A stretch of 64,000 nucleotides of DNA from a virus. Numbering within the stretch: the first letter of the stretch is position 1; every line of letters begins with the position of its first letter. The DNA is taken from positions 16,181 through 80,180 of IMG/VR virus record IMGVR_UViG_3300028844_005393. The stretch is one strand, 5' to 3'. This document shows, piece after piece, positions 17,231 through 41,096 of this stretch. The position numbers and the translations under genes are program-made. The notes under the pieces were generated by a model. It was not told the origin of the DNA. It worked only from the letters and a program-made list of their open reading frames with translations, and made no database searches.

Positions 17231-20200
17231 ATGACAAAGATTTTACAACATACATTTGCTTCATCGGCAGATAATGAAAATAATATACTAAGACATATTA
17301 GTTTAAGTTCGGATGACTTTAATAAAATTAAAGAATCCGAATCAAGTGGCGAGTTGTTTGGGGTAAACTCAAAAGATGTTATAGAGTTTTCTGCATTTAC
17401 CCAATCAAATGAACTTGTTGGTTGGAAAACCATTGAACAGGCACCGAGTTATTCAACCAAAAATATTACGCATCTAAATACATCAGGTGAACTAGAAAAT
17501 AAAACAATTTCTTACTTACAATCTTTGTATCCAAAAACAAAAAACGGAGAAGTAATAATTTCTCCTAAACACGAACTCGGTCTGCTTGGAATAGAACAGG
17601 GTGAGTATAAAATACGAATTTCGTACAAAAATGATATAGTTGGTTCGTTTGATAATCCATATAAATTTGAAATAAAAGAAATATCCAGTTCAAGAACAGA
17701 GATAAAAGCAGTAGCACAATCTTTTAAAAATTCAGTAAATCCGAACCAAGTTTCTTTGAATTTTGAATACTCAAACTTTATTAATAGACGAATTGTAGTA
17801 GCACATATACTTGAAAAAACTAAAGATTTACTTTTAACAAAATCATTCAAAGACGAACTTGAAACAAAAGAATTTTCAGCAAAAACATCTGACTATGAAT
17901 TGTATATTGAAAAAACCAAAAAAGCATTTTCTTTAAGTGAACTTGAGATTCTAACAGAGCTTGATTCAATTTATACAAATCTAAAAGATACATACACTAA
18001 TTTTTTATACGGAAGTTATAATGAGGTATTTACCGAAGGTAGATTTTATACCGAGTTCGTAAATTTAGTTGATTATACACTCAGCACCTTTTCTAGATTT
18101 GTACAAGAAGACAACAAAGATATTCGTCTTTTTTACAAGTTTATGTTGTTACAAATGTACGATGAAAGTGTAATAACTAATGTATACAAAAAAAGATTTG
18201 ATACATATCTCAACAATGGAATGAACTTTGGAAATGGTTTATATATTCCATTTTTAAGATATACGAGTTACACAGATGATTCTCTTGCGGAAAATTCAAA
18301 TGATGTATTACTAATAAAATTATTAACGCCCTTGGAGGACAATATAGAAGAGGGTGTAAACTTTTATATATCACAAACTCCGTATTCTGATGATATAATA
18401 AAAAGTTTGGTATTAAGAACAATAGCAGAAAAAAGTTCAAATACATTTAAACTAAGAGGACCGAATATATCCACAAAACTTACATCAAACTCAACAAAGA
18501 AATATTCACTCAGTGACGAAGAAAAAACCGAATCGTTAGGTAGAGATGAAACAAGTGCAGAAAACTTTTTTAAGACCACAAATACCGAAATAGAAAATCT
18601 TAATATTGATTATTCTGATTTTAAAAATTTTGTAAAATACTCATCTGCTCGTTCTAGGTTGGATAACTTTATATTAAAATTAACAAATATTTCTAAGTTA
18701 AAGTTTAAAATAAACGAAACAATTAGAAATATAAATAAATTAGACAGAGATGTTGCCGAGGGGTTGGTGGGTGCAAATGAAGCAGAGCGTTCCAAAGAAG
18801 TATTAAAAAACGAAGACATTAAAAAATATAATGAATCTATAATAGAAATATTTAAGTCATTTACTCCATACGATAAGTTTTTATACTTTGATGATAATGA
18901 AGCAGCCTGGCCACGAGAAACTTCATTTCAAATAAGTGGTTTTGTTGGTAAAAATAATTACTTAATTAAAAGTGCAAATGGTTTCTATAAACTTCATGCG
19001 TCAAGAAAATATGATATAGACAAAGTGTTTATAAACGAAGACAACCATTCGTGGCAAATACGATGGGACGCAATTGTATCCAAATGGAGATTATTCAACG
19101 AGGATTCGGATGACTACATTTACTCAAATAACTCAAACTTAAATTCAGGATTCACGGCATCAGAAACAAATCAAAGTGGATTTGATTCAGAATCTTCATT
19201 GTTTAAACTTGGAACACTTGAAGATGACTACACACAAGGAAAGGCGGTGTTTCCACCCGAATTAATACCGACTACGGTAATTGATTTTCAAAAAACAGAA
19301 GGATACAACTGGTATCAAATAAAAGCAAAAGAAGCAGATTTATACGATAGATATAACGATGATTCACTTAGAAATAGTATTCCTGAATTTTTGGTAAGAA
19401 CAAATGAAAATGATGAATTTACTTTGTTTTTAGATATGATAGGTGAGCAGTTTGATATATTGTCGGTGTATGCAGAAAATATGCGAGAAGTTTCATATGC
19501 AAGAAATTCATTAAACAAGGGAATTCCTAATCAGTTAGTATGGTTTGTTATGAACTCATTTGGAGTTCGTTTGTCGGGAAGAACCACCGACGACTCTACA
19601 ATAGGAAAGCAATTTGAAGAAAATCGTGATATAGTATGGAGACGTATATTAAACAACCTTCCTTATATATTAAAAACAACAGGTACAGAAAACTCAATAA
19701 GAGCATTATTTAGATGCTATGGTATACCCGATCACCTTTTCAAAATAAGAGAATATGGAGGAATAAACTATAATACAGACACAGAAGACTCAGATGCAAA
19801 TTTTAAAATAAGTACATTTGATTATTCACTCCAAGTTGACGAACCTGATCAGTATTTGCACATTCCAATTGACCTTGGTGAGACGAATACCAACTCGTGT
19901 GCATTTGAAATGAAACTAACAACACACGCAGAGTTTTTTGAACAAATTCAGGATACAGAAACATTTGACGAACTAAACTCAGGTACATTACCTGCAAATA
20001 CAGGAACATCAGTAAGTATTTCTAATTTAATAAACTCGGAAGATGATTACATAATAAACTCTACTTCACCTACATTTTATAGCAAACATAAAGATGAGGT
20101 TTCGTTTGTACCTGAAAAATGGAAACATACAAAAAGCACAATGGCAATTTCTTGGAAAAACTTCCGAGAAGGTGTTTCGTTTTCATACCCACAAGTAACC

Positions 20201-23200
20201 GCAGGTAAAGAAGCATCTTTCGTAACAATTTATTCTGATAGTGCAAAGAAAATAAGAAAAAACAAAGATGGTAAGGACGAATATTATTATGATCCATTAT
20301 ATACTCTTGCTGAAATTGGAGCACATGATACTCTCAACGGAGAAATTGTACGACTTTCGTTTGGATTATCTCATCAATCGGTTATTGATGATAGTCAATC
20401 TGATAAATTTAGAAATGATTTACATTCTGTTGATTTTAGATATGAAGGAAGTGTTGAAGGAGAACACTATACAATAAGTGAACTTAGAACAAGGCGATTT
20501 AGTAAAAACAATGGATTCTATCCAATTATACAATCAGACCGTTCGTGGGATTTTGGAATATATAAGAATGAAAATTTTCGTGATAACTATGGAAAGTTTT
20601 ATATAAATTTTTACAACACAGATGGTGTAATTTTATGTCCAGAGAAAAACTCAAATCCTATATACTTTGATAAAGATATTGAGTATGACATCTTGATTAA
20701 TTGTCGGACATCTAACATTGAAACGGACAGTAAAATATCAATTCATGTAAAAAGAGTATATGATTCTGAAGAAATATTTACAACAGAGATTGATATATTA
20801 GTATCAGAGTTTACTTCTTTACGTGTTTTTAAAACCAAAAACTTATATTTCGGAAACTATGAATCAGTTAATAAGTTCCGTGGAACACTTGACAAACTTA
20901 GAATATATTCGGATGAAGTTTCCGAAAGGCGATTTTTAAGTCACATAAATAACAACCAAGGATACGACTTGGATGATTATTTAAAACTAGAAAATTCATT
21001 ACACGTAAAGGTAAATTTTGATCACCCATATTCATTGGTAAATGATACAAAACATACTACTTTCAAATCTGCATTAATTGGTTCGGGTGTAGATAAAACT
21101 GGTAAAGGAGAATATTCAGGACAAATAGACTCCGAGGGTTTACGAGATTATACAGAAGGTTCTCGTGTAATAATAACATTTGAAAAAGACAATAAAGAAG
21201 AAGCAATAGAAACTGTAATAAACTCAAATACAGGAGTATTGCGTTTTAATTTACAAAAAGACTACAACATTGAGTTAATAAATAAACCAAGCATACGGTT
21301 ATCATCAACCACTAATTCAATAAAGAACTATGCACTTGCTGATAATGCCCAAGATATAACGGCATATAACTTTAACAAAACAGAGTATCCATATAACTTT
21401 GTTGGAAAAAATAGAACAGAAATAAGCAATTTACCCTCAATGGGGGCAAAGTCTTTTAACAACAATAAAATAAGAATTGAAACTCAAACAAAAGTGTCTC
21501 AATTAAGTCCTATTGCAAGGGCAACTAAAAAGTCTAAAGATAGGCATCCTGTTGATTCAAATAATTTAGGTGTGTACTTTAGTCCAACTGATATTGTAAA
21601 TCAAGAAATAATAAGATTTTTTGGACAAATAAATATGGGTGATTTTATCGGAGACCCACAAGAAACATACTCACATTATTACAAAAAGTTTGAAGGTTTG
21701 CGGCGTGTATTTTTTAAACACGGATTTGGAAAACTTGATATACAAAACTACTTTAATCTAATTAAGTCTTATATAGATCCTTCCTTGTTTGAAAACTTGG
21801 AAAAAATAGTTCCAGCAAGAGCAAATTTAATTTCTGGATTATTGGTAGAACCATCTTTACTTGAAAGAAACAAAATAATTCCACCACGGATACAGTCGGG
21901 AACATGGATTGATTTGGAAGAAAATGATGTTTCTGATAAAAAGAAAATACAAGAAATACTAAATATAGATTTTAAGATTGGCAACGGCCGAAACAACATA
22001 TCTACATTTGGAAACGAACGGTTGTATATCAAAAACAAAAATACAGATTACAAACTCACACATGAATCTAAAATAAAAGTATTTGATAATGAATCGGATT
22101 CTACATACAACTACAACTATAGTGGAAGTTTAATCGGAGAGGACATTAAAGATTATACTCGTGATTTATTTACAATAAATGGATTAACTGAGTATAAAGG
22201 AAAGTTGTGTCGTGTTGAAGAACTAAACGAAGAAAAAGAAATCGGAATTCAATACAGTGGCAAGTTAGTGAACTATGATATTTTCTTAAATGATGGAATT
22301 CAACTCATGGGACTCAAGTTTGGACTTGAATCAGCAAATGGGGTTTATGAATTTATATTTAAAGGAAACTCGGGTTTACCTGTATTTGCAAACCAAAACA
22401 GAAAGTGGTGGGTATTTTATTCATCACATAAAAATAGATGGATACTTGCATCAGACAATACGGTGGATGGAGGAAAGTATTTAGCACTGAATCGTAATAA
22501 AAAGTTTGAAAACTATACTTGGTTGGGTGGTAACAGAATAATAGACAGTAATACAAACTCACCCGAGTGGTTTAGCACCGGGTTCAATAATTCAATAGAG
22601 TCGGATAATTTACCAAATGAAAAAGCAGATTATTTTGGAAGAGTAAACTTTGTATCAAAGTATAATAGATTTATAGATTGCGATGCTTATTTACAAGGTT
22701 GGGTAAACGCGGAATTGTATGGAATATATGATGGAGAGTTAATAGAAAGAGTTTTTGTTGACTCCAATACATTTGAAAATATTAAGAAACCAAAACAAGA
22801 ATATATATTCTCGGGTGAAAAGAAGTATGTCTATTTCAACGGAAACTTCAGAGGAAAACTTCAAAACGGATGGGTGGGAAGTAAACAAATACAACAAGAA
22901 AATTCAAATAAGATAATAAGAATAATAGGATTTTTTGATGGAAAAAATCACGACTCATGTGAAAAACCATATTATACATCGGGTGAAATCAACTCACTTG
23001 TCAGTTTTGATAACCGTGACAAGTTGGTATTTGATTATAGAAATTTTGATAGCAATAATGTTAGGTATACTAAAAAGAATTTCAAGAACTTTAATTTAGT
23101 AAAAGTTCCCAATAAAATAAACTTTGATAACAAATTTGATTTCAAATTCGTATCTGATTTTAATATTAAGAACCAAGGAATTTCAGATTTAGTTGATCTA

Positions 23201-26200
23201 GCAAGTGGTGAGTTAAATAAAGATTACACAATAGAAACAACTGATATTTTTTATTCACCTTCATTATACAAGATTTCCACAAAATATAATTTAAATCTGA
23301 GAACAAATTCTATATTAGATGTAAAATTTATAGCAAAGAAAATAAGTTATAGAATCAAAAACTCTGATGTTATTTTAAAGTTAAAAAATTCTACCTTAAA
23401 ATTTAATTTTACAAATAATGAATTTAACGGAAATGAAATAATAAGTCGTGGAGAAGACTTTCAAGTAGGATCAATCTACAACCAAGCAGGAGAAAAACTT
23501 AGAGGAAATGCAAAAGAACTTATTGCAGATGTAAAGAAAAGCATCAATTACAAAGTGCACACAGAAACCGCAACTCAGGCAGATAAAGTAATTGAAAATG
23601 AAAACGATTTTTGCTTGGTAGTTGCAGGTGATTCTCTTGACAATTTTAATTTCATATTCATGGTTGTGCTTGGAAAGAAAGTAGAATTCCAAACAAGCAT
23701 GGATAATCAAAACTTTTTTAATAACACTTATATCAAAAAAGTTGAAAAGCAAACGTCACATGAACCAACTCCAATGCACATAAATAAAATACCGCAGTTC
23801 GTTAGAAAAATAGAATTCATAGAAAGTGGGTTGGGTTATATAGGTGATGAAATTGTAGAAGTATATGGTAAACGACCATTGAATTGGAAATCTTCATGGC
23901 CACAAAAGTTAAAAGCAGATAGTTTATTTAATATAGACAGAGATACGGGAGAAATTAAAGGAGTTAAATTTGATAACTTCTTAATATCTGGACTTAACTG
24001 GATTACAGATGAAACTATATCATATATTGATACACCTTTAATTAAAATAGAAAAACCAATTAAATCAGAACGTTTTACGAAAAGAGAACCTGCTGAACTT
24101 AGAATTGTGACAGGCGAACCAACACCACAAGTTTCTGCAAAAGTAACATTACAAAATTTTGTTAATTTAGAACTTGGTGATACAATAGGTAAGTCATTAA
24201 GATCAGCAAATATGTTCTTTGAAGGAAGTGAATTGATAAGATACGACACAGGACTAATTCATACTAAGAAAACAAACATCCAAACATCGGAGAAACGTTC
24301 TAGTAGAAGATTGAATTCCACAGAAGTTATTGTATTTTCAAACGAATCAATTTTGAATTTTGAAATGTATTTAGATAGCAAGATACGAGATATTATGCGG
24401 ATGGATATATGTGGAAATGAAACACCAATTACATCCGACACATATGATATTCAAATTAACAACTATATAAATGAAGATGATGACGAAGTAGATTATGATA
24501 TTTCATATGTAAAAAATCGTGAGGTAGTAAATAATTTCTTTGTTATATTAAATGAGCTGGAAGCAAAAGACCACGAGAAACAAATTGATGATGAACAATA
24601 TATCAACAAAATATCTAAAATAAATGAAAATAGATTTTCAAGTGGCTACATAAGAATAAATGGTTTTAATACAAACCAATCAACTGCAAACGGAATTTAT
24701 AGATTTAGAAATGATATATCGTATTGCGATAAGTTTGGTAGTAATAATGTACCAATTCCAACTTACACAAACGAAAATAAAGAGTGGATTATTACTTATG
24801 ATGAAGATATTAAAAAGTGGAAATTAAGAAACATAAAAACATTTGACTTTATTGTATCTAAAACAAAATTTATTGAAGACGGATTTCTTGCAAGTGAAAG
24901 TAACAACCAAGGTTTTTATACAGGTCGGGAAGTTATATTAAAACCAGAGTTTAAAGTTGATCGCAATGGAATAGTTTTTGATGAAGATGAAAATATCATT
25001 GGAAACACATTCCAAGAAGCAAATGTAAATGTAAGCAATAGGTTCAAGATAGTTCCAAACAAATTATTATTTAAACTCAATAAAGAAAACTTTAATAATT
25101 TTTTAATGTGGAAAGTTCAAATTACATCCAAGACAAATAAAAAATTTGTGTTTGAGATGCCAATTGTGTACATAAACTCAGATTCAAACGATGAGTTATT
25201 TTTAACAAAGTATAATAATTTAGAGGATAAATTAAAACAACTCAGTGTTACACAATTTCAAGAAACGAGTGAGTGTAGTTTAAATTTTCAAAATGCTATA
25301 TCATGGAAAATAAAGTTATATAATGAAAATAAAGGTGAGTTCTCTGCTACAAAGAAAATAAAAACACAAGGAGTCACTTATTTAAACTCAACTTGCTTTT
25401 CAAAGATAATAGATACTGATGCGGAAGGAAGGTATTCGTATGTTGCTGATAAAATTATTAATGACAAAAGTACATTACTGGAATATTCAGAGTATCACAA
25501 ACAATGGAAACTAAAAACCATAGACAGAAGTGTTACGTTGTCTATGAATAAAAAATACCCAAAATGTGGTGTTTACAAAACAACTACCAAAAACATATAC
25601 GGAATTTGTGAATACGAAAAAGCAGATGATTCAGGAAACCTAGCAATAAGATTTAGAAACTTTGATGAAGAATATGAAAACGCAAATGGTTTATATTTTT
25701 CATATGGTTATCTTGAGACTGGTGAACATTTATTTAGAAATGAAAACTCAAATTGGTTATTTTATACAACAGATGGTGGAAATACTTGGGATGTTAGGGA
25801 TGATAGAAACTATCCATCATTTAAGATTGAAATGTATAGTGAAATTGAACAAGTGGGTGTGTACACAGATAGTACAGAAAATATTAAAGTATTTCTTAAC
25901 TTTGAAGTTGATTTTGAGTTTGAAAATAAAAGAGATTTTCTAGATGTAGACAAAGATACATTGGCACTAAAAAGTAATTTAAATAAAATATTAGTGTACA
26001 ATAAAACAGGATATGAAAAAGATGTTTCTAATGACATGAACCTTGATGTAAGAATTGATATAGTTAATGCAAAAAAGAAATCAGAATATTGGTCATCAAT
26101 TCCGTGTAAAAATCAAAAAAACATAAATGATCTTTATATGCACAATAATCTGTTTCTAAAAACTACAAATGAAATTTTTGTTGATGAAGATGGAAACGAT

Positions 26201-28588
26201 AACTTCCAAATAGAATTAAATGTAAATAAGACCAAGAATGTGTTAGATGAATATAAACATTTTAAAACTAATTTATCAAACATAGAAGAAACAAAAACAA
26301 TAGATGTGGGTGAACTTTATTCAAATAAATTCAGTACATCCATAAAATACAAAGTTGGTGATATAGTATTTTTAAATGAAATGATGTGGGAATGTAAAAA
26401 AGATATTCCTGAAAACAGAAGTGTAATTCCTGGAATAGATTTTGATACGGGTAATCATTGGAAAATTATTAGTAAAAATTTCACAGAGTTACACATCACC
26501 ACTGAAATCCAAATAGAAAAGAAAAAGTATCGTGATATAACTAAAATTAACAACCATGATTTTCATTATACAAAAGAATTTGTTAAATTATTTAAATCAA
26601 AAAATCAGTTGGAAAGTGGTATAGATGAAGATTTTGAATCAAGTATATTTAAAAGATACAAAACTGATAAGAAGTATATGCCTTTTGATTTGGGCAATAT
26701 AGGAAAGCACAAAGATATAATACCTCATGGTAGGGTAAAAACACACACATACAATACCTATACAAGAAATATGGGTGTGTCTGATAACACAACCGATACA
26801 ACAATTGATAAAAGTGGATATTTGTGTGGAAAACCAACTATTGTAAGAACATACAAAAAGAACGAAGATAGGAAAGAGGAATATAGAAAAGATTCTTTTT
26901 GGTTTAACCAAGACAAAAAACACACACGAACAAGTGAACCTCAAAACTTGTACGAAAAACCAGAACAAGAACCAATTATTTCTTTTAGATTTGAGAAGTT
27001 TGATGTACTGAAAAATATATCACTTGTGGTAAGTGGGTTTACAACCGACCAAACCAAAGATTCAAATGGAAAATACGAGCAAATAAATAGTTCGTACAAT
27101 GATACAAATGTATATAAAAACGATAAAGGATACATCATATACAAAACAAATCAATGTTGGATTTTGATAAAATCAAATAAACCAATGGAACTTTCTGAAC
27201 TTATAGATTCAAATTCAGATTACACTACAAGTGAATCAAAGAAAATAGACGGTGAGTTGAATGGAAATTTTGGAAGTAGTGCAAATTTCACAAATCAGGT
27301 TGGGTTTGTAGAAATCTTAACGGATGAAATAATAGAAAAAACCCCAACTCCAACACCGGAAGTAACACCCACCCCAACTCAAACTCCGACTCCGAGTTTA
27401 TTGGATGATGAATCACCCGATGATCCAATTGCAAAGACAACACCTACACCCACACAAACAACCACACCTACACAAACTCCAAAAGAAAAAACACCGACAC
27501 CTGTGAGTAAAGAAGAAGAAAAATTATTTTTATATGAATTTAATGACCTTGCAATAACTTCAAAAAAATATGATTTATCCAAAAATCCAGAAGAAGTGGA
27601 AAAAGAAATAAAAGAAGATTTAGATAATAACAAAATAATTGTATCTGGTATAATGACAGTTGAAGAACTGTCGGAACGGGAAAGTGTTCTTACAAAAATA
27701 CCAACTTCAATAGAAAACTTTGGGGTAACGGTTGCGAGTTATTCAAAAATGATAGATAATGACTTAATAACAACAGATAATGTTACAAAGTATGGTTGGA
27801 CATCAACTGGTACGGTTTTAAAAGGAAAATTTAGATCATTTTATGTTTCAAGGAATAAAGCAGGAAGAACCCATAAATACGATAATCAAAATATATTTGC
27901 AGAATATGGTTATTATATAAAAAGTTGGTTTGGCCCACGCCCTGTTGTGGTAAAGTTGTTAAACCAAACAGCCGCAGTAACTGACCTAGAAGCAACAAGT
28001 GGGTTATCTGAAGGTGTTAAGCTAACATGGAAACCATCCTATAATGCCGTATACATTAGAATAGAATATAAAAATAAAAGTTCAAGTGAATGGAAAGTGT
28101 TAGAGGATAAAATTTCTCAAATCAGAGCAACGGGTGGATACGTTGACTCAGATATAAACTTAGATGAAGAACGAACATATCGTGTAATTTCCGTGGGGTT
28201 GTCCGGTAAAGAGACTATATCAGAAGAAGTTACTGGTTGGAAATTGGGAATACCAGCTTCTCCTGAATACGTAAATGCTTCTTATGATAAATTCGCAGAT
28301 AAAATTGAATTATCATGGGATGCGTCTGGATTAAACTCTCAGTTTAATAAGACAGATAATTATACAATTTTAAGATCAGAAACAAATGAATTTGAAGACT
28401 TCTCTACATATCAAGTTATAGCAACAGAGGTAACCAACTCAAATTATGTAGATGTTTTTAGTTTTACACCAAATAAAATCTTTTGGTATGTAGTTGTAGC
28501 AAACAACGAAAAAACAAAAATGATGACGTCAGAAGAATACAATAAAAAGAAGAACTGGTCAAAGTCAGCTGCCGGAAAAACAAAATAA
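17231..28588 (+). CDS. Giant multidomain baseplate/host-contact protein (3785 residues)
   Basis: A single uninterrupted frame of 3785 codons with ribosome site AAAGGGTT. The first 860 residues include a conserved baseplate-like part (LDMIGEQFDILSVYAENM, then WRRILNNLPYILKTTGTENS, at about 735-830) that marks gp7-position proteins of marine T4-like phages. A LamG/concanavalin-like domain follows (about 875-1240) with one SWKNFREN module inserted in it (about 917-1095). The rest contains at least six degenerate NGxY...W...W units (near residues 583, 1703, 2488, 2733, 2819, 3280), a CBM5/12-like segment (YKVGDIVFLNEMMWECKK, 3040-3083), Thr-Pro linkers (about 3370-3425) and two FN3-like domains at the end (about 3581-3765). 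It is therefore probably a wedge component carrying several glycan-binding modules. T4 gp7 has 1032 residues, so most of this protein is extra. Confidence 0.8.
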   Translation: MTKILQHTFASSADNENNILRHISLSSDDFNKIKESESSGELFGVNSKDVIEFSAFTQSNELVGWKTIEQAPSYSTKNITHLNTSGELENKTISYLQSLYPKTKNGEVIISPKHELGLLGIEQGEYKIRISYKNDIVGSFDNPYKFEIKEISSSRTEIKAVAQSFKNSVNPNQVSLNFEYSNFINRRIVVAHILEKTKDLLLTKSFKDELETKEFSAKTSDYELYIEKTKKAFSLSELEILTELDSIYTNLKDTYTNFLYGSYNEVFTEGRFYTEFVNLVDYTLSTFSRFVQEDNKDIRLFYKFMLLQMYDESVITNVYKKRFDTYLNNGMNFGNGLYIPFLRYTSYTDDSLAENSNDVLLIKLLTPLEDNIEEGVNFYISQTPYSDDIIKSLVLRTIAEKSSNTFKLRGPNISTKLTSNSTKKYSLSDEEKTESLGRDETSAENFFKTTNTEIENLNIDYSDFKNFVKYSSARSRLDNFILKLTNISKLKFKINETIRNINKLDRDVAEGLVGANEAERSKEVLKNEDIKKYNESIIEIFKSFTPYDKFLYFDDNEAAWPRETSFQISGFVGKNNYLIKSANGFYKLHASRKYDIDKVFINEDNHSWQIRWDAIVSKWRLFNEDSDDYIYSNNSNLNSGFTASETNQSGFDSESSLFKLGTLEDDYTQGKAVFPPELIPTTVIDFQKTEGYNWYQIKAKEADLYDRYNDDSLRNSIPEFLVRTNENDEFTLFLDMIGEQFDILSVYAENMREVSYARNSLNKGIPNQLVWFVMNSFGVRLSGRTTDDSTIGKQFEENRDIVWRRILNNLPYILKTTGTENSIRALFRCYGIPDHLFKIREYGGINYNTDTEDSDANFKISTFDYSLQVDEPDQYLHIPIDLGETNTNSCAFEMKLTTHAEFFEQIQDTETFDELNSGTLPANTGTSVSISNLINSEDDYIINSTSPTFYSKHKDEVSFVPEKWKHTKSTMAISWKNFREGVSFSYPQVTAGKEASFVTIYSDSAKKIRKNKDGKDEYYYDPLYTLAEIGAHDTLNGEIVRLSFGLSHQSVIDDSQSDKFRNDLHSVDFRYEGSVEGEHYTISELRTRRFSKNNGFYPIIQSDRSWDFGIYKNENFRDNYGKFYINFYNTDGVILCPEKNSNPIYFDKDIEYDILINCRTSNIETDSKISIHVKRVYDSEEIFTTEIDILVSEFTSLRVFKTKNLYFGNYESVNKFRGTLDKLRIYSDEVSERRFLSHINNNQGYDLDDYLKLENSLHVKVNFDHPYSLVNDTKHTTFKSALIGSGVDKTGKGEYSGQIDSEGLRDYTEGSRVIITFEKDNKEEAIETVINSNTGVLRFNLQKDYNIELINKPSIRLSSTTNSIKNYALADNAQDITAYNFNKTEYPYNFVGKNRTEISNLPSMGAKSFNNNKIRIETQTKVSQLSPIARATKKSKDRHPVDSNNLGVYFSPTDIVNQEIIRFFGQINMGDFIGDPQETYSHYYKKFEGLRRVFFKHGFGKLDIQNYFNLIKSYIDPSLFENLEKIVPARANLISGLLVEPSLLERNKIIPPRIQSGTWIDLEENDVSDKKKIQEILNIDFKIGNGRNNISTFGNERLYIKNKNTDYKLTHESKIKVFDNESDSTYNYNYSGSLIGEDIKDYTRDLFTINGLTEYKGKLCRVEELNEEKEIGIQYSGKLVNYDIFLNDGIQLMGLKFGLESANGVYEFIFKGNSGLPVFANQNRKWWVFYSSHKNRWILASDNTVDGGKYLALNRNKKFENYTWLGGNRIIDSNTNSPEWFSTGFNNSIESDNLPNEKADYFGRVNFVSKYNRFIDCDAYLQGWVNAELYGIYDGELIERVFVDSNTFENIKKPKQEYIFSGEKKYVYFNGNFRGKLQNGWVGSKQIQQENSNKIIRIIGFFDGKNHDSCEKPYYTSGEINSLVSFDNRDKLVFDYRNFDSNNVRYTKKNFKNFNLVKVPNKINFDNKFDFKFVSDFNIKNQGISDLVDLASGELNKDYTIETTDIFYSPSLYKISTKYNLNLRTNSILDVKFIAKKISYRIKNSDVILKLKNSTLKFNFTNNEFNGNEIISRGEDFQVGSIYNQAGEKLRGNAKELIADVKKSINYKVHTETATQADKVIENENDFCLVVAGDSLDNFNFIFMVVLGKKVEFQTSMDNQNFFNNTYIKKVEKQTSHEPTPMHINKIPQFVRKIEFIESGLGYIGDEIVEVYGKRPLNWKSSWPQKLKADSLFNIDRDTGEIKGVKFDNFLISGLNWITDETISYIDTPLIKIEKPIKSERFTKREPAELRIVTGEPTPQVSAKVTLQNFVNLELGDTIGKSLRSANMFFEGSELIRYDTGLIHTKKTNIQTSEKRSSRRLNSTEVIVFSNESILNFEMYLDSKIRDIMRMDICGNETPITSDTYDIQINNYINEDDDEVDYDISYVKNREVVNNFFVILNELEAKDHEKQIDDEQYINKISKINENRFSSGYIRINGFNTNQSTANGIYRFRNDISYCDKFGSNNVPIPTYTNENKEWIITYDEDIKKWKLRNIKTFDFIVSKTKFIEDGFLASESNNQGFYTGREVILKPEFKVDRNGIVFDEDENIIGNTFQEANVNVSNRFKIVPNKLLFKLNKENFNNFLMWKVQITSKTNKKFVFEMPIVYINSDSNDELFLTKYNNLEDKLKQLSVTQFQETSECSLNFQNAISWKIKLYNENKGEFSATKKIKTQGVTYLNSTCFSKIIDTDAEGRYSYVADKIINDKSTLLEYSEYHKQWKLKTIDRSVTLSMNKKYPKCGVYKTTTKNIYGICEYEKADDSGNLAIRFRNFDEEYENANGLYFSYGYLETGEHLFRNENSNWLFYTTDGGNTWDVRDDRNYPSFKIEMYSEIEQVGVYTDSTENIKVFLNFEVDFEFENKRDFLDVDKDTLALKSNLNKILVYNKTGYEKDVSNDMNLDVRIDIVNAKKKSEYWSSIPCKNQKNINDLYMHNNLFLKTTNEIFVDEDGNDNFQIELNVNKTKNVLDEYKHFKTNLSNIEETKTIDVGELYSNKFSTSIKYKVGDIVFLNEMMWECKKDIPENRSVIPGIDFDTGNHWKIISKNFTELHITTEIQIEKKKYRDITKINNHDFHYTKEFVKLFKSKNQLESGIDEDFESSIFKRYKTDKKYMPFDLGNIGKHKDIIPHGRVKTHTYNTYTRNMGVSDNTTDTTIDKSGYLCGKPTIVRTYKKNEDRKEEYRKDSFWFNQDKKHTRTSEPQNLYEKPEQEPIISFRFEKFDVLKNISLVVSGFTTDQTKDSNGKYEQINSSYNDTNVYKNDKGYIIYKTNQCWILIKSNKPMELSELIDSNSDYTTSESKKIDGELNGNFGSSANFTNQVGFVEILTDEIIEKTPTPTPEVTPTPTQTPTPSLLDDESPDDPIAKTTPTPTQTTTPTQTPKEKTPTPVSKEEEKLFLYEFNDLAITSKKYDLSKNPEEVEKEIKEDLDNNKIIVSGIMTVEELSERESVLTKIPTSIENFGVTVASYSKMIDNDLITTDNVTKYGWTSTGTVLKGKFRSFYVSRNKAGRTHKYDNQNIFAEYGYYIKSWFGPRPVVVKLLNQTAAVTDLEATSGLSEGVKLTWKPSYNAVYIRIEYKNKSSSEWKVLEDKISQIRATGGYVDSDINLDEERTYRVISVGLSGKETISEEVTGWKLGIPASPEYVNASYDKFADKIELSWDASGLNSQFNKTDNYTILRSETNEFEDFSTYQVIATEVTNSNYVDVFSFTPNKIFWYVVVANNEKTKMMTSEEYNKKKNWSKSAAGKTK

Positions 28589-31652: not shown

Positions 31653-34600
31653 GTGATAAAAGTATTGAAATTATCAAATAAGTCGGTCACACGATTTAGC
31701 ACAAATAAAAAATGGAATTATAGTACACTTGATTCGGGAAGTAATATAATACTAGAACAGGGTGATAATGTTCCTTTATTCTCTTCGTCTGTAAATAAAT
31801 TATCAACCGAACAAAATTCTTCTGAATTTCAATTAAACATGAGATTTGGAAAAAAGATTTCTGGTACATTTTTTAGCAAAAATAGTAAACACTTTGATGA
31901 AACCAAAGAACCATTAAATTACGATGGCTCTTATCAAAGAGTTGTGTTTAATAGTATAAAGCATTTATTTTACAACGATTATGGTACCGTGGGTGGTAAT
32001 GATGAATTAAACAGTTTTTACAAAAACCCATTAAATTTATTTGGAAGTGAAACTGGAATTTACTCATCATCAAGTTTTAACTCCAAAACACTTGAAGAAG
32101 ACCCACGAAGTGAAAGAAGAGTTTTAAAAGACGAAGTAACTGTCCTTGAAGTACCGTCTAATGTATTTGGTGAAAAAATAAAACCAGGTACATTAAAAAT
32201 AACAGATAATAGTTCGGATTATGATTCTATTGAAATTGTTGACGATGGAAACACTAACTTAATAATAGGTAGTGGTAACTTTAATAATGTAAATGAAATG
32301 AACTTGAATAATAATTTATTTAGTTCAATTTCAGAAACATCATCTTCGGATAACAAGATAAATATAGATTATACAGATTTAAGTTATGGATATACAATAG
32401 ATACTCATGGAGATTTTTTATTATCAGGAGCACCTATTTTATCAGACTCGGTTTCTGAAAATCAATCTGGTCGTGCGTGTTTACACAAATATAATCCAAA
32501 AACTAAAAAGCACGAAATAATCAAAAACTTTTATTGTCCATTTACACAAAATGGAATTGCACACGAAAATAGAAATGATAATTGTGAATTCATCTTAACT
32601 GAACTCGGTGGTATTGTATCAAGTGAAGATTTTTTGGTAAATGACGACTTCGGAAAATCGGTTTCAATTAATGATACCATATGTGCGATTGGTTCTCCTG
32701 GTTCTCATATAAACGGAAGACATACTGAGCAAGCAACGGGTCATATTTTTGTTTATCACAAAGATAAGGGTGGTAAAGAAAATTGGGGAATTGTAAATGT
32801 ATTTGAGGGTACACCCAATTCTGAATTTGGTCATTCGGTATCAATAAACGAAGAGTTTATAGCAGTTGGTTCTCCAAACTTTGAAGATGGAATTGGTTGT
32901 GTTTACTTGTTCAAGAAAACAAAACGAACAAAAGAACATCCTTGGATAAAAACATCATCTGTATATGATTCGTATAAGTGGAACGATCTACTGGAAAAGT
33001 ATGAAGGAATTCCTAAACAGGATGATACAAAATACAAAGAGTATATTAAAATACGAGATAGTATTGTATCTCGCAGAATAGAAAAAATCAGAACAGAACT
33101 TAAAAAAATAAAAGAATCAGGGGTCATTTCCGAACTCGAATATTTAGATAGACTACCAACCAAGGATGATTTTAGTGAGATTTTTCCATTTGAGTATTTA
33201 TACACAACATCAAACGAATGTAATGATTCCGACACTCCTTGGTTTAAAGAAAAAATCTGGAATAAAAATACTCATCCTGCAACAAGATGTAATTCTAAAA
33301 ATTCTGACAAACATTTTAATAAATCAATGTGGCCTGGATACATGACCGATGAAAAAACTGATTTGTACATCCCCAACCCAGAACATGAACAAAACAAGGA
33401 TAACAAATGGGCATATAGATGGAAACTGCAAAATGTAGAGGGTGGTTCTGAGTCTATACATTTGTTCGGAGAGGATATAGAGTGTGAGTTAGATATATTT
33501 ACTACATTTGAAGACTCAACTCTGGGGTCGTTCGGAGACTCAAAACTACCATTAGTAGAATACTCAGAATCTCCAAAATATGCAATTGGTGATGTAACAT
33601 TTGATTTAGTTGGAGTAATAAAATCTCCTGATAAAGAAATCAGAAGATTTGGTGAAAAGGTAGTTTTAAATAAAAATAAATTATACATTTCATCTCATTC
33701 CACAACTAACCCAAAATGCTTTATGTTTCAAAAAACAACAAATGAGTTTGGTTGTGAAGTGTGGAACTTAAAAAATACAATTTCAGAAACTCAGTTATTG
33801 GGTCACGCTTCAAACTCTAAAATTGACGATTCATTGAATTATGCTCAAATCAATCATTATGATTCTTTTTTTGAAATTGAAATATGCCCAAAACACGACA
33901 ACTACGATAAGTGGATATATAGTTTTGATAAACCAATATTAAATTCAGAAAAGGTTGTAGTAAGTGGAACTCGGATTGATAAGTGTGATTCAAAATGCAT
34001 AGACACGGGATCATATAATTATTATTCAAGATTTAGGCATATAGGATTAAAAGAAGCAGGACACCTAAAACACAATTATGGAGAATCCACAGAAGTGATT
34101 TCAGGAGAAACTGGTAAGTTCTATAAACGTCCGAGTAATTATGATCCATATACACAACCATTGTTAATGTCCCAAAACGAAACAATGGAGTTATCCTGGA
34201 AACGTTTTCGTGAAAATGTTTCATTTGCTTATACAAATGTTCCACCTGGGAAGCATAAGTCAAAAATGACAATATACTCAAATAAAGCAAAATTAAAAGA
34301 TGGAACTTATGATGAAAAAGAAACACTTGCTGAAATTGAAGCAAATGAAACATTAAATAATAAAAAAGTTAGATTGATTTTAAATAGTGGGTTGGGAGAG
34401 TCTGAATACTTTTACGAGTTTTTATTTCGTGGATCGCTAGACGGAACACATTATACACTAAATGAACTTGTAGATAAAATTGATTATGCGTGTACACTAC
34501 CACCCAACATTGGTTCGTTTGTAGATATAAGTGACAAATTAGATGATACTTTACATAATCATGGAAATTGTAAATTTTTCTCAAAAGAAAAATCAGCAAG

Positions 34601-37600
34601 TTCGTATATTGAACCTTGGAGTGCAGACGATACAATTGCTATTTCATGGAAGAACTTTCGTGAGAATGTATCTTTTTCATATCCAGCAGTAAAAAGTGGA
34701 AGTCAACCATCGTTTATGACAATTTATGCAAACGAAGCAAAACTAAAAGATGGAACATATGATCCAATTCACACACTTGCTGAAATTGGAGCACACGAAA
34801 CATTAAATGGAGAAATTGTGCGTTTGACATTTAATAGTGGTTTTGTGAACGGAGATGAATATTATTATGAATTTCTATATTGTGGGTCAATAGAAGGAAC
34901 TCATTTTACATTAAACGAATTAAAACAATCATTAGATTACGAATGTACATTGCCACCAAATCAAGGTGAGTCTATATCAATCGCAGAAGAACACTTTGAC
35001 GATCCTTTAAAAAATAAGCAATATGCAAGATTCTTTTCTAAAGGATTGGATTCATTGTCATATGTAGAGCCGTGGAGTGCAGATGATACAATTGCATTGT
35101 CATGGAAAAATGTTCGTGAGAATGTATCTTTTTCATATCCAGCAGTTAAAAGTGGAAAGCAACCATCATTTATGACGATTTATGCTAACGAGGCAAAACA
35201 AGACGATGGAACATACAACCCACTTTATACAATTGCCGAGATAGGAGCACATGAAACTTTAAATGGTAAAAAAGTAAGACTCACATTTAATACCGGATTT
35301 GCGGGTGGAGACGAATACTATTACGAATTTATATATCGTGGGTCAATAGAAGGAACACATTTTACACTAAATGAACTTAGAACTAAATTAGATGACGGTT
35401 ATGCAGAAACGCAGATAAACTCGGGTGATATTCGTTATATCAAAAATTATGATAAGTTAAATATCCACAAACGTTGTAGGTTACCAAAGTTTTATACCAA
35501 GTTTGAAAGTCAATTATCATATGTTGAACCTTATTCAAGTGATGATCACATAGCAATATCTTGGAAAAACTTCCGTGAAAATATTTCATTTTCATATCCA
35601 AACATAAAGACCGGTTCTGAACCAAGTTTCATGACGATTTATTCTAACGAAGCAAAACAAGTTGACGGAACATACGATCCGATTTACACTCTTGCAGAGA
35701 TTGGTGCAGATAACGCATTGAATGGTCAAAACGTAAAATTATATATAAATGCCGATAATTGTGAACATGATAACACATATTATTATGAATTTATTTATAA
35801 TGGTTCGGTAAATGGAACTCACTATACACTAAACGAATTAAAACCAAAATTTGATTATGAGTGCAATTTTCCACCAAATTTAGGAAAGTCAGTTGAATTA
35901 AAAACACTGGATGGTAGATTTAAGGAAAACAACGGTGCTAGGTTTTTTAGTAAATCCGAAGATTCGTTGTCATTTCTAGGCACACACTCCACCGAAGATA
36001 CAATGGGTTTATCTTGGAAGAATTTCCGAGAGAATGTATCTTTTTCTTACCCAAGAGTAAAACAGGGAACTAAACCTTCGTTTATGGCAATTTATTCCAA
36101 CGATGCAAAGAGGTCAGACGGAACATACGACCCAATGTATATGTTAGCAGAAATTGGTGCACATGAAACCCTTAACAATAAAATGGTTAGATTAACACTA
36201 AATAGTGGGTTTGTAAATGGAGACGAGCACTACTATGAATTTCTATATCGTGGGTCAGTACAAGGAACTCACTTTACTTTAAATGAACTAAAAACATCAC
36301 ACGAATATGATTGTACACTTCCACCAAACCAAGGTGGGTATGTGTCAATCTCAGATAAAAACTTCAAAGACGCACTTAACAATAAATCTAGGGCAAAATT
36401 CTACTCAAAGAGTGAAGATGGATTATCATATGTTGAACCTTGGAGTGATGATAAAACAATTGCAATATCTTGGAAGAACTTTCGTGAGAATGTATCTTTT
36501 TCATATCCAGCAGTTAAAAGTGGAAGTCAACCATCGTTTATGACAATTTATTCAAACGAAGCAAAGAGTGTAGATGGAACATATGACCCAATCCATACAC
36601 TTGCTGAGATTGGAGCACATGATACTTTAAATGGCAAGAAAGTAAGACTCACATTCAACACAGGATTTGTTGGTGGGTCCGAGTATTATTATGAATTTAT
36701 ATATACAGGCAGTGTACACGGAACTCACTATACATTAAATGAACTAAAAGAATCTTTTGATTACGAATGCACACTACCACCTAATATGGGAAAGTATGTA
36801 TCTTTGTCAAAAATAGAATTTGATGATTATTTAGATAATAACGACAAAGCAAAGTTTTATACAAAGAGTGTTGAACAATCCGCATACATACAGAACCCAA
36901 CATCTAAAGATGAAATTGCTATTAGTTGGAAAAATTTCAGAGAAAATGTTTCTTTTTCATATCCTAACGTAAAATCTGGAAACGAACCAAGTTTTATGTC
37001 AATTTATTCAAATGACGCAAAGGATAAAAAGGGAAGATATGATCCCATCAAAGCACTTGCGGAGATAGGTGCAGATGTGGGTTTAAATGGCAAAATAGTT
37101 AGATTAACATTTAATACAGGTTCAACTAATGATGACGAGTTTTATTATGAATTTAAATATGACGGATCGTTGACTGGTAAAAATTATACATTAAATGAAT
37201 TAGCTGAAAACGATTTACTACATAAAGTTGAGTCTGGAAATCACATACAAAGAAAAAACAATTCTGTAATTGAATTTAAGGTGTCGGAAAAAATACATAG
37301 AATAAAAGTTGAGAAGGTACAAAAAGAAAAATCAAATAAAATAACTACAACAAAAAATAAAAAGTTAAATACAATTAAGTCGTTTGGTTTGTTAGAAAAA
37401 AACAAGGGAAAATTAGAAGTAATTGATATTAAATTACGAGATGATATATTACAGTCATCCGAATCATTAAACTTTTATAGTCGTGATGATGATGATGAAT
37501 TATATACAGAGAATACCAAATTAAAAAACGAAGTTCAAATTGATTGGAGGAATTTTAGAGACGGTGTTAGTTTTTATTATCCTATTGTTTTAAAAGAAGA

Positions 37601-40600
37601 TAACAATACACCTGTAAAAATGACAATTTATAGTGACCACGAGAATGTAGATGGGTATGATAAACATAGAAAACTTGCAGAGATTATTACAAATTCTGGA
37701 TTAAACGGTGAGGTTGTTCGTCTTAGTTTAGAACCAAAGGAGACGAATTCTATATTCTATGAGTTTATGTTCGATGGTCAACCCGAAGAAGGTTCGCATT
37801 ATACATTAGCAGAATTAAGTACAAAAATACCAAATAATCGTTTATTCAAAAGTAATGATACAACACCAACGACAGAGGGTGGGACTATAAAAAATCAAGC
37901 AAGAGAAAGCTTTATTCCACCGATTGTATACTCAAGTGACTTAGAAAGTTGTAAGGTAAAACTTGATAAAAGTAAAATTACAAGTGGACGACATAATTTA
38001 TATATTTTATTGGTTGATTCTAAATTAAAACCACTTGGAGAAGAAACGAAAATAGAAATGTACAACAATCCAAGTTTTTACAATTTAGAAGATAGAAGAA
38101 ATTTGGTAAAAAAATCATACGGTTACTCTGATAATATAAAATCTGAGTTTGGACGGGGTATTGATGCTTCCGACAAATATGTGGTAATAGGAAATCCTTC
38201 GGATAGAGTATATTACCTAAATTCAACAAAGTCATGTGTTGCTGGAAGTGCTTTTGTATATAGAGTAAATGATGATGATTTGAATTTCATTGAAAAGATA
38301 TATGGTGAAGATGACTACGAAAACAATTTTAGTTCTGGATTTGGAAATGATGTTTCTATTTTAGGAAGTAACTTTTTAGTGGGAAGTTATTCACATGAAA
38401 TATCAGATATGACTCTTACGGAAACTAATTCTGCAAAACGACTAGATATTGAAGACTTAGAGTTTGGTGTATCCAAGTTTACAGATGAAGTATATACTAC
38501 AACCGATGCACTTATTACCGACTATGAAGTGGATTTAAGCAGTGAGTTTGGTGACGCATTAATAAAAGTAAAACTGGATGGTTTAAATATAGACAAATCA
38601 TTAATTTCAGAGTCCACATTAAGAGCAAATTTTATAGATACAGGAAACGAGACGATTCGTATTACACAGGTAGAAGGAGAAAGTACAGAGTCAATAAACG
38701 GAACATATCGTTTAGTTAAATCTCCTATACAAATAAAATCTGGATGTGAAATTGATTTTAATGAAAATTATCGTGTTTACATTAACAAAAACAATTGGTC
38801 AATATTTTTTGACAAACTAAGAGGTGCGTGGATTCTCACCGATACTCCAAATGTCTCTGTTGAATATGAAATTCCAAGTGAATGGACCGATGTATTAAAA
38901 CACTTTGAAAGAATAAACTTACTAGATAAGTTTAATATATTGACAGAAGAAATGATAAATACTGCATTAAGTTTATATAATATAATAGATGAAGATATAA
39001 CAACAACTTGGAGATCACGAAAGCAAAAACAAATTCCAAAAAATAACATAAGATACGCAGATTTATTTAGAGAGTTGGAATCTGTAACTAAACTAAAATT
39101 AAATCCTACTATAATTGAAAGATTATTTTATTTGTATAGTTCTAATTCACGAAAAAAAATTGATATATCTATTTTAAACAGATGGAAAAACTCAAACCAA
39201 AATATAGGGGTTCTTCCTTTTATATATGAACTAGATTCTGTCAATCCTATATCTCTTAATTTTGATTTATTGATAAAGACACTTGAGGTATATAATTTAA
39301 AAGATTATGAAATCGCAAAAACATGGTCAGTTAAATTGGGATATGAATATTTGCTCGGTGACTTGATAGATGATATTCGTCCTAAATACCATGATAATTT
39401 ATCATTATACAACCTAAGACTTATTAGCAAAATTGCATTTGATTTTATTAATGACCGAAACTATTCTGATTCTGATATTAGTAAAAATTATTTTAGAAAT
39501 TTAGTAAAACAAGACATTGCAATATATCTTGATAAATGGAAATCCCAGGTGGAAAACGGATTTTTATTAAGTGATGCGTTTAAGGATATAAATGAAAATA
39601 TAAATATAAACTTTTCAATATCAGACGAAGCATCAGAAGATGACCTACCAACAAAATTTAGCTATGGGGTTGGTACATTAAGCAATATGGAAATAAAAGT
39701 ATTTTCAAATAACGACACATCTGGTAACAATTCATCACTTACATGGGGAGTTTATCGTGATGCCACAAAGATAGTTGGTAATCAAATATATTTTTATGTA
39801 AATTTACTACCAGATACACAGTTAGATGACACCGTTGTGTTCGTTTACAACTCTGTAAAATCAGCAATAAATGGATATACCTATTATTACTCAATTGAGA
39901 ATGAAACTGGTAAGTGTAAGCAAATGAAGAGAATGAAAACAAATAAAAAGAAATACTCTTGCAAAAAGCAATATGGATTTGCAGTAAGTTTGAGTAACAA
40001 TTTTATATGTGTGGGTTCTCCTGTTCTTGGTAATTTTAATATAGACGAACTAATTACATTCGGAGGAAGTTCGGTAGTATCATTCGGAACATCCGAGAAA
40101 ATGTACATTGAGTATAATGCAATACATCCCTCTTATATAAATGAACTTGGTAAAAATATTGTAGGAACAATTATAACATACGATCACTCTGCGATAAAAG
40201 ATAACAAAAAACATTATATAGGAAATGTATTTTACAAAAATGGTGTCATTACACTTACAGACAGAGCAGGATATTTTACAAATGTATTAAGCAACAGTGG
40301 AGTTTCTGGATTTGAATTAGAATTTAAATCAATGCACACTTTATATGAAAATGAAATTTTATGCAAAATTGAACCACATGAATTTAATTTTAGTACCAAC
40401 CCAACCGCAGTCGTAGCTGGTGGAATCAACTATGATATAAACAACGATGGAAGATTTGATATAATAGATGCTTCCTACATTTACAAATATATAATGGGAG
40501 AAATTGGTCCAATTGAAAAATCCGATGAAGAAATAATAGAAGAACACAACGCAATTAAATTAGGTTCTAATGATAATTGGCCAAAACAAGATTTATTAAT

Positions 40601-41096
40601 GACCGAGTCAGAAGATGCTTTATTAATGGATTTATTCGTAAACTCAGAAATACTAGAAAAACGACCTGATTATGAAAAGGTTCTTATTAATTTAAAAGAA
40701 AAGTACGATAATGGAGATTTTGACATAAACGGAGATGGTAAAACAGATGAAGTTGATGCGAATTTACTGCTAAGATACTTCTTGGGAAGACGGGGAAACT
40801 ATCTTACACGAAATTTAATAAGTAAATATGATGACTCAACAAGAAAAGATTCTAGTAGTATAATTAAATACCTAGACGAACAAACTGGAAAAAATCTAGG
40901 AAAAAAAATATTAAAAGATTTCCAAGATTTTTCTGAGAATGATAAAAAAGATTCGGTGGGAAGTTATTTAGCACCATATGCCACAACCATAGGTCTTTAT
41001 AGTGGTTTAGATTTAGTAATGGTTGCAAAATTAGGCAAACCCGTAAAGATATTACCCAACTACCCAATAAACTTTTTAATAAAATTTGATAATTAA
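31653..41096 (+). CDS. Giant propeller/repeat adhesin-like virion protein (3147 residues)
   Basis: One frame of 3147 codons starting at GTG 31653; the next Met is far downstream. Seven FG-GAP-like blades can be traced by their FGxxV...GxP pattern, beginning near residues 243, 330, 391, 663, 2164, 2228 and 2772, i.e. a probable seven-bladed propeller with very large insertions. Between blades four and five lie seven regular SWKNFREN modules of about 152 residues and an eighth, diverged one (about 810-2060). A helical insertion (about 2415-2640) and an NGTY-W unit (about 2348) follow blade six. Residues 2928-3045 hold a dockerin-like pair, DINNDGRFDIIDAS and DINGDGKTDEVDAN. The end matches the end of the previous protein. 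I infer a long host-recognition or adhesion protein. Confidence 0.8.
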   Translation: MIKVLKLSNKSVTRFSTNKKWNYSTLDSGSNIILEQGDNVPLFSSSVNKLSTEQNSSEFQLNMRFGKKISGTFFSKNSKHFDETKEPLNYDGSYQRVVFNSIKHLFYNDYGTVGGNDELNSFYKNPLNLFGSETGIYSSSSFNSKTLEEDPRSERRVLKDEVTVLEVPSNVFGEKIKPGTLKITDNSSDYDSIEIVDDGNTNLIIGSGNFNNVNEMNLNNNLFSSISETSSSDNKINIDYTDLSYGYTIDTHGDFLLSGAPILSDSVSENQSGRACLHKYNPKTKKHEIIKNFYCPFTQNGIAHENRNDNCEFILTELGGIVSSEDFLVNDDFGKSVSINDTICAIGSPGSHINGRHTEQATGHIFVYHKDKGGKENWGIVNVFEGTPNSEFGHSVSINEEFIAVGSPNFEDGIGCVYLFKKTKRTKEHPWIKTSSVYDSYKWNDLLEKYEGIPKQDDTKYKEYIKIRDSIVSRRIEKIRTELKKIKESGVISELEYLDRLPTKDDFSEIFPFEYLYTTSNECNDSDTPWFKEKIWNKNTHPATRCNSKNSDKHFNKSMWPGYMTDEKTDLYIPNPEHEQNKDNKWAYRWKLQNVEGGSESIHLFGEDIECELDIFTTFEDSTLGSFGDSKLPLVEYSESPKYAIGDVTFDLVGVIKSPDKEIRRFGEKVVLNKNKLYISSHSTTNPKCFMFQKTTNEFGCEVWNLKNTISETQLLGHASNSKIDDSLNYAQINHYDSFFEIEICPKHDNYDKWIYSFDKPILNSEKVVVSGTRIDKCDSKCIDTGSYNYYSRFRHIGLKEAGHLKHNYGESTEVISGETGKFYKRPSNYDPYTQPLLMSQNETMELSWKRFRENVSFAYTNVPPGKHKSKMTIYSNKAKLKDGTYDEKETLAEIEANETLNNKKVRLILNSGLGESEYFYEFLFRGSLDGTHYTLNELVDKIDYACTLPPNIGSFVDISDKLDDTLHNHGNCKFFSKEKSASSYIEPWSADDTIAISWKNFRENVSFSYPAVKSGSQPSFMTIYANEAKLKDGTYDPIHTLAEIGAHETLNGEIVRLTFNSGFVNGDEYYYEFLYCGSIEGTHFTLNELKQSLDYECTLPPNQGESISIAEEHFDDPLKNKQYARFFSKGLDSLSYVEPWSADDTIALSWKNVRENVSFSYPAVKSGKQPSFMTIYANEAKQDDGTYNPLYTIAEIGAHETLNGKKVRLTFNTGFAGGDEYYYEFIYRGSIEGTHFTLNELRTKLDDGYAETQINSGDIRYIKNYDKLNIHKRCRLPKFYTKFESQLSYVEPYSSDDHIAISWKNFRENISFSYPNIKTGSEPSFMTIYSNEAKQVDGTYDPIYTLAEIGADNALNGQNVKLYINADNCEHDNTYYYEFIYNGSVNGTHYTLNELKPKFDYECNFPPNLGKSVELKTLDGRFKENNGARFFSKSEDSLSFLGTHSTEDTMGLSWKNFRENVSFSYPRVKQGTKPSFMAIYSNDAKRSDGTYDPMYMLAEIGAHETLNNKMVRLTLNSGFVNGDEHYYEFLYRGSVQGTHFTLNELKTSHEYDCTLPPNQGGYVSISDKNFKDALNNKSRAKFYSKSEDGLSYVEPWSDDKTIAISWKNFRENVSFSYPAVKSGSQPSFMTIYSNEAKSVDGTYDPIHTLAEIGAHDTLNGKKVRLTFNTGFVGGSEYYYEFIYTGSVHGTHYTLNELKESFDYECTLPPNMGKYVSLSKIEFDDYLDNNDKAKFYTKSVEQSAYIQNPTSKDEIAISWKNFRENVSFSYPNVKSGNEPSFMSIYSNDAKDKKGRYDPIKALAEIGADVGLNGKIVRLTFNTGSTNDDEFYYEFKYDGSLTGKNYTLNELAENDLLHKVESGNHIQRKNNSVIEFKVSEKIHRIKVEKVQKEKSNKITTTKNKKLNTIKSFGLLEKNKGKLEVIDIKLRDDILQSSESLNFYSRDDDDELYTENTKLKNEVQIDWRNFRDGVSFYYPIVLKEDNNTPVKMTIYSDHENVDGYDKHRKLAEIITNSGLNGEVVRLSLEPKETNSIFYEFMFDGQPEEGSHYTLAELSTKIPNNRLFKSNDTTPTTEGGTIKNQARESFIPPIVYSSDLESCKVKLDKSKITSGRHNLYILLVDSKLKPLGEETKIEMYNNPSFYNLEDRRNLVKKSYGYSDNIKSEFGRGIDASDKYVVIGNPSDRVYYLNSTKSCVAGSAFVYRVNDDDLNFIEKIYGEDDYENNFSSGFGNDVSILGSNFLVGSYSHEISDMTLTETNSAKRLDIEDLEFGVSKFTDEVYTTTDALITDYEVDLSSEFGDALIKVKLDGLNIDKSLISESTLRANFIDTGNETIRITQVEGESTESINGTYRLVKSPIQIKSGCEIDFNENYRVYINKNNWSIFFDKLRGAWILTDTPNVSVEYEIPSEWTDVLKHFERINLLDKFNILTEEMINTALSLYNIIDEDITTTWRSRKQKQIPKNNIRYADLFRELESVTKLKLNPTIIERLFYLYSSNSRKKIDISILNRWKNSNQNIGVLPFIYELDSVNPISLNFDLLIKTLEVYNLKDYEIAKTWSVKLGYEYLLGDLIDDIRPKYHDNLSLYNLRLISKIAFDFINDRNYSDSDISKNYFRNLVKQDIAIYLDKWKSQVENGFLLSDAFKDINENININFSISDEASEDDLPTKFSYGVGTLSNMEIKVFSNNDTSGNNSSLTWGVYRDATKIVGNQIYFYVNLLPDTQLDDTVVFVYNSVKSAINGYTYYYSIENETGKCKQMKRMKTNKKKYSCKKQYGFAVSLSNNFICVGSPVLGNFNIDELITFGGSSVVSFGTSEKMYIEYNAIHPSYINELGKNIVGTIITYDHSAIKDNKKHYIGNVFYKNGVITLTDRAGYFTNVLSNSGVSGFELEFKSMHTLYENEILCKIEPHEFNFSTNPTAVVAGGINYDINNDGRFDIIDASYIYKYIMGEIGPIEKSDEEIIEEHNAIKLGSNDNWPKQDLLMTESEDALLMDLFVNSEILEKRPDYEKVLINLKEKYDNGDFDINGDGKTDEVDANLLLRYFLGRRGNYLTRNLISKYDDSTRKDSSSIIKYLDEQTGKNLGKKILKDFQDFSENDKKDSVGSYLAPYATTIGLYSGLDLVMVAKLGKPVKILPNYPINFLIKFDN
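34081..37840 (+). repeat. Eight tandem SWKNFREN modules
   Basis: The core Trp codons of the module lie at 34197, 34647, 35103, 35562, 36015, 36471, 36927 and 37545, i.e. spacings of 450-459 bases and then 618 for the diverged last copy. Copies 2, 3 and 6 are nearly identical in DNA around the core, while copies 1, 4 and 8 have drifted. Confidence 0.95.

Follow-up and report, generated by a model that had tools for sequence, protein, structure and literature searches.

The locus described here raises the question of what purpose is served by a protein module of ~150 residues that is repeated eight times within one very large predicted phage protein. Phage tails are known to carry arrays of accessory domains, but to our knowledge the purpose of such arrays has rarely been testable. 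The relatives of this locus provide a natural experiment, in which the same two tail proteins carry nothing, one type of module or a second type not detectably related to it, and in which the copy number varies. The sequence analysed, referred to as the window, is a 64,000-nucleotide stretch corresponding to bases 16181-80180 of the 80,180-base virus record IMGVR_UViG_3300028844_005393.

Genome organization and relatives

The genome has T4-type features, including gp25-like and gp6-like baseplate wedge proteins, a terminase, a portal and a head protease. Among named phages, the terminase is best matched by Microcystis phage Mel-JY01 (53%) and the Flavobacterium phages immuto (52%), followed by the uncultured 484-kb record LR756508 (44%), and the same three come first again in a search with the gp6-like protein. 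Three genes designated A, B and C are central to this analysis. Gene B follows the baseplate wedge genes and gene C is flanked by gene B and a primase gene, a position at which immuto encodes proteins annotated as tail fibre and tail spike; the C-terminus of gene C has a homologue at the corresponding position in Mel-JY01. Judged by this synteny, the products of these genes are putative virion components. The records of Mel-JY01, immuto and LR756508 were searched for the module itself, and none contains it. An ORF with at least six LETGS repeats (window 15395-16633) adjoins the baseplate genes.

Ten module copies in three genes

An eightfold array had been noted in the initial annotation at 34081-37840, and translation together with a module HMM places it at window positions 34056-37820 within gene C.

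31653..41096, + strand: gene C, 3147 aa, with predicted FG-GAP propeller, array, dockerin-like pair and conserved C-terminus (ORF and Pfam)
34056..34472, + strand: module copy C1 (module HMM, as for all copies below)
34497..34925, + strand: module copy C2
34950..35381, + strand: module copy C3
35409..35843, + strand: module copy C4
35868..36293, + strand: module copy C5
36318..36749, + strand: module copy C6, the structure-prediction query
36774..37205, + strand: module copy C7
37392..37820, + strand: module copy C8, diverged and preceded by a longer linker

The tryptophans of the SWKNFRE motif in copies 1-7 are at 34197, 34647, 35103, 35562, 36015, 36471 and 36927, with spacings of 450, 456, 459, 453, 456 and 456 bases that agree with the annotated period of 450-459 bases, and the eighth copy is diverged as described, with its tryptophan at 37545, 618 bases past that of copy 7. 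The motifs quoted in the annotation are all present but with variants among the copies, such as SWKRFREN and AYTNV in copy 1 and DWRNFRDG and YYPIV in copy 8. The per-copy i-E values in gene C range from 9.9e-57 to 2.3e-79 and the direct repeats are detectable at the DNA level too, and the array is thus far beyond chance. Every copy is under purifying selection, with NG86 dN/dS values of 0.05-0.23 between close orthologues.

The annotated count is right for gene C but missed two copies, one in gene B (i-E 7.7e-42) and one in gene A (i-E 8.6e-35), so that the window contains ten in three genes. No further copy was found in the first 16.2 kb of the record among frames of at least 50 aa at the HMM threshold used.

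1165..3399, + strand: gene A, 744 aa, with one terminal module, the most widely conserved carrier (module HMM)
2875..3351, + strand: C-terminal module copy of gene A (module HMM)
17231..28588, + strand: gene B, 3785 aa, with one module, downstream of the gp25/gp6-like baseplate genes
19988..20488, + strand: module copy in gene B, in a predicted LamG/ConA-like loop (module HMM and empty-site alignment)
27341..27540, + strand: Thr/Pro-rich (mucin-like) tract in gene B

The module is a previously undescribed, predicted all-beta domain

As seen in these data, the module is previously undescribed and restricted to one group of uncultured contractile-tailed phages, being present in about 40 IMG/VR contigs (including gene A loci added later), all of them metagenomic and many fragmentary. 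The initial annotation could not name the family, whose novelty a strong match to a described repeat family would remove; profile searches for such a match found none, and the module has no counterpart in Pfam, NCBIfam, PHROGs or PDB sequences beyond a chance-like transketolase alignment in the PDB (E 0.011). It likewise has no match among the 50,697 phage records of INPHARED. A cellular origin was considered, and 84,980 prokaryote genomes, scanned twice with sequence patterns, yielded no relative. No homologue of known function was found in any of these searches.

The beta-rich pattern noted earlier is borne out by structure prediction. An AlphaFold2 model of a single module, built from 54 aligned modules with copy C6 as the query, is confidently all-beta (pLDDT 95.7, pTM 0.89), with ten strands and a short C-terminal helix, and the fold is probably a beta-sandwich. 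A two-copy model (pLDDT 89.3, pTM 0.82) is consistent with neighbouring copies that are fairly fixed relative to one another. Foldseek searches with the single module give no significant match, to carbohydrate-binding or Ig-like domains or otherwise (best PDB E 0.093, best BFVD E 0.062), a null result that does not by itself demonstrate a new fold as Foldseek aligns by 3Di plus sequence. The top PDB rows for the two-copy model are mostly two-domain Ig proteins, but with E values of at least 5.8e-3 and TM below 0.2 these are not evidence of homology. At the sequence level there is no match to known CBM families (Pfam and PDB sequences) or to Ig-like families (Pfam and other family profiles), and none of the 54 modules hits BACON in Pfam-A.

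Across the gene A, B and C contexts alike, conservation reaches 85% or more at twenty positions, which include W, Y, K, R, E, H and T residues, and few Ser/Thr positions are conserved. Residues conserved in all three contexts are compatible with a common binding site, although the conserved polar residues may have a structural role instead.

Modules occupy insertion sites in genes B and C

Gene C matches the Pfam families FG-GAP_2 (9.1e-13) and Dockerin_1 (2.2e-07) and contains seven FG-GAP motifs, four before the array and three after it, a count from which we infer a closed seven-bladed propeller.

32382..33716, + strand: FG-GAP motifs 1-4 of gene C, at aa 244, 333, 390 and 665 (motif search)
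38142..40085, + strand: FG-GAP motifs 5-7 of gene C, at aa 2164, 2228 and 2772 (motif search)
40431..40496, + strand: first dockerin-like Ca-binding motif of gene C, aa 2927-2948 (Pfam)
40563..41093, + strand: conserved C-terminal region of gene C, common to orthologues with and without arrays

The second dockerin-like motif, DINGDGKTDEVD, lies within the conserved C-terminal region, through which the gene C orthologues were collected. Many of these are array-free and about 1050-1480 aa in length (1482 aa in the array-free phage G001), and the complete arrays in relatives have 8, 6 or 5 copies. In a module tree made by a quick method from few columns, and unrooted, the gene A modules all group together (98), as do the gene B modules (94). 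Copies C4, C7 and C8 keep their position across relatives, and C2, C3, C5 and C6 mix between positions, which points to turnover of the central copies. Two of the orthologues also have a LysM domain between the two dockerin-like motifs (Pfam 5.7e-10 in L060/G001 and 1.4e-07 in L061/G004), which the gene C of the window is without, and this represents a third variable slot in the gene.

In gene B the empty slot is exact: residues 921-1098 of the window protein (P2) have no counterpart in G001, where the aligned blocks stop at residue 1087 of the gene B product and restart at 1091. The motif pattern and the empty-site alignments together predict that the insertion site is a loop of a LamG/ConA-like domain; Pfam gives no Laminin_G hit in window 20000-21300, which starts with the module and excludes the first LamG strand. 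A separate Laminin_G_3 protein (Pfam 3.3e-12) is encoded right after gene B at 28589-29485.

The same two proteins are filled in a sister lineage (G004, G012 and G013) by a second type of module (A4, ~100 aa), with one copy in the LamG loop of gene B and 5-6 copies in gene C, mostly between FG-GAP motifs 3 and 4 and one between motifs 6 and 7. This type 2 module is not detectably related to the SWKNFREN (type 1) module; homology is plausible to the eye from a W...SI...IY...LxxI...G pattern, but was rejected on an hhalign probability of 1.3%, obtained with a profile of only 6 rows. In each of the 19 contigs in which both sites are readable, genes B and C match in module type (nine with type 1 in both, the window included, three with type 2 in both, and seven with both empty), although these contigs are kin, with two near-identical in gene C, and do not represent 19 independent events.

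Gene A is linked to a glycosyltransferase

Gene A with its C-terminal module has the widest distribution of the carriers and includes phages that have no arrays. Directly downstream is a glycosyltransferase (GT) gene.

3400..4125, + strand: GT-A glycosyltransferase with WxxDxD and GWGFQDLDL motifs (Pfam)

The GT matches Glyco_tranf_2_2 (1.8e-07) and Glyco_transf_7C (1.5e-05) in Pfam, its nearest PDB sequences are of beta-1,4-galactosyltransferase 7, and the profile match and the DxD and GWGxxD motifs identify it as GT-A galactosyltransferase-like. All gene A loci examined have a GT-A enzyme immediately after gene A, with GTs down to about 30% identity. Conversely, the ORF just upstream of the GT contains the module in 35 of 45 GT loci. 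Among the ten module-free loci, eight have a Thr/Pro-rich mucin-like tract upstream, one has neither and one has no readable upstream ORF; such tracts (T+P over 0.55 in 60 aa) are present in 8/9 ORFs upstream of the GT and in 5/61 other ORFs of those loci (Fisher p 1.1e-06). The HD-domain gene that follows the GT in L196, L197, L199 and L204 is 57-86% identical to that of the window (86% in L199), and thus the position before the GT is taken by the module protein in some phages and by the mucin-like protein in others, in the same syntenic setting. Other mucin-like tracts, in gene B and in the ORF at 6596-7354, are also candidate substrates of the GT.

The ORF at 6596-7354 (+ strand) has an extreme Thr/Pro tract, with T+P of 0.87 over 60 aa, and is absent from ORF lists based on start codons at the length cut-offs applied; L194, L197, L199 and L204 have comparable frames. 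Upstream of gene A is a module-free protein of ~639 aa (L001:15016 to window 755) with homology to the N-terminal portion of gene A. It is a gene A paralogue, split by the window start, and the gene A profile matches it in most loci.

Possible roles of the module

Multivalent surface-binding decoration of the virion is the most likely of the roles we have considered, and we tentatively favour, while stopping just short of calling it probable, a lineage-specific, phage-private all-beta adhesion or decoration module that is displayed multivalently via the array. The single module at the C-terminus of gene A is the most widely distributed form; in one lineage the LamG-like loop of gene B and the site between propeller blades 4 and 5 of gene C also contain copies of it, or of a common source, which in gene C form a tandem array of 5-8. 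The conserved C-terminus would anchor the propeller head of gene C at the tail tip, each copy would bind a component of the host surface or an extracellular glycan of the host, and the array would provide avidity and reach from the head. The virion adhesin suggested in the initial annotation thus stands in so far as the protein is large, occupies the tail-fibre or tail-spike position of its relatives and has a multivalent layout; ligand binding we likewise infer, and surface exposure and the class of ligand are presumed with it. If host glycans are bound, the module would represent a new adhesin family without known relatives.

The annotation also offered a rigid stalk, and an array that sets the distance between two parts of the gene C protein would account for the regular 150-153-aa period and short linkers, for the pTM of the two-copy model and for a copy number that varies among relatives as in length-tuning stalks. 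However, the array is an insertion with both ends in the same predicted beta-propeller and should loop out, array-free orthologues are common, and the single copies at the gene A C-terminus and in the gene B loop have no obvious stalk role. The insertion topology and these single copies demote a plain stalk, which we consider improbable, and the placement of the module at a C-terminus and in a loop, together with the matched filling of two tail proteins, fits surface decoration better than a spacer. The array could also be largely neutral or structural padding, in which tail-protein loops tolerate insertions that intragenic recombination expands, with no specific binding role. The mixing of C2, C3, C5 and C6 is a sign of such turnover and the same proteins do accept a module of no detectable relation in another lineage, but neutral insertion does not predict the agreement in type between genes B and C, and the strong purifying selection on every copy and the polar residues conserved in all contexts also speak against it; we regard padding as similarly improbable.

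The constant linkage of gene A and the GT suggests another possible role, and it is this linkage that makes a glycan acceptor the strongest rival to adhesive decoration, albeit an unlikely one. The module would then be a folded glycan-display (acceptor) or docking domain for the neighbouring GT, the virion would be glycosylated there, and multiplying the modules would multiply the sugars displayed. The replacement of the module by mucin-like ORFs at most module-free GT loci, including the exchange at a syntenic place exemplified by L199, is in keeping with this, and virion glycosylation by phage-coded enzymes has precedent (Freeman et al. 2023, as cited in PMC12619734). Yet the gene order is perhaps merely inherited, the same GT is found in phages with and without arrays, and it could act on a small molecule, on DNA or on a host glycan; moreover, the scarcity of conserved Ser/Thr positions in the module does not favour it as a substrate, and the Thr/Pro tracts of gene B and ORF 6596-7354 are more ordinary candidates for O-glycosylation. 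A fuller version, in which the module is the folded acceptor of a dedicated, always-linked GT, replaces mucin-like tracts and is multiplied across three virion proteins to coat the tail in sugar, is more doubtful still. Were the module a substrate of the neighbouring GT, this would be a new form of virion glycosylation.

Comparison with other virion-associated domains

Adhesive decoration has parallels in several known systems. Tail-associated tandem repeats of BACON domains in crAss-like phages, for which a host-binding role has been proposed (de Jonge et al. 2019, PMC6949934), were also found by mining viral contigs and share with the module a tandem array of beta-domains in a large tail-associated protein (here by synteny) and a lineage-specific expansion by duplication. 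The module differs in matching neither BACON nor any other Pfam family, in its length of about 150 aa and in the lack of cellular relatives in the genomes scanned, and it is inserted between propeller blades and shared with two further proteins. Ig-like domains of phage virions (Fraser et al. 2006, as cited in PMC6949934) are, by that account, accessory beta-domains that have likewise spread among a number of structural proteins, either within or at the end of the chain, whereas the module has neither an Ig-family profile match nor a significant single-copy Foldseek match. In the 936 lactococcal phages, virion proteins carry CBMs whose binding to the host has been shown (PMC6669499), and these phages resemble those described here as a single group with binding modules in several virion proteins and a presumed gain in avidity; their CBMs have structural homologues of known CBM type as well as shown binding, and the module has neither. 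By analogy with BACON arrays and CBM-decorated virions, both thought to serve host-binding display, the module may have a similar role. Elsewhere in the window, a protein encoded at 62093-62869 has acidic stretches with about three direct EEGLTKAQEKLPEPLKKAILKKQGNSDDSSEDE repeats lying between them.
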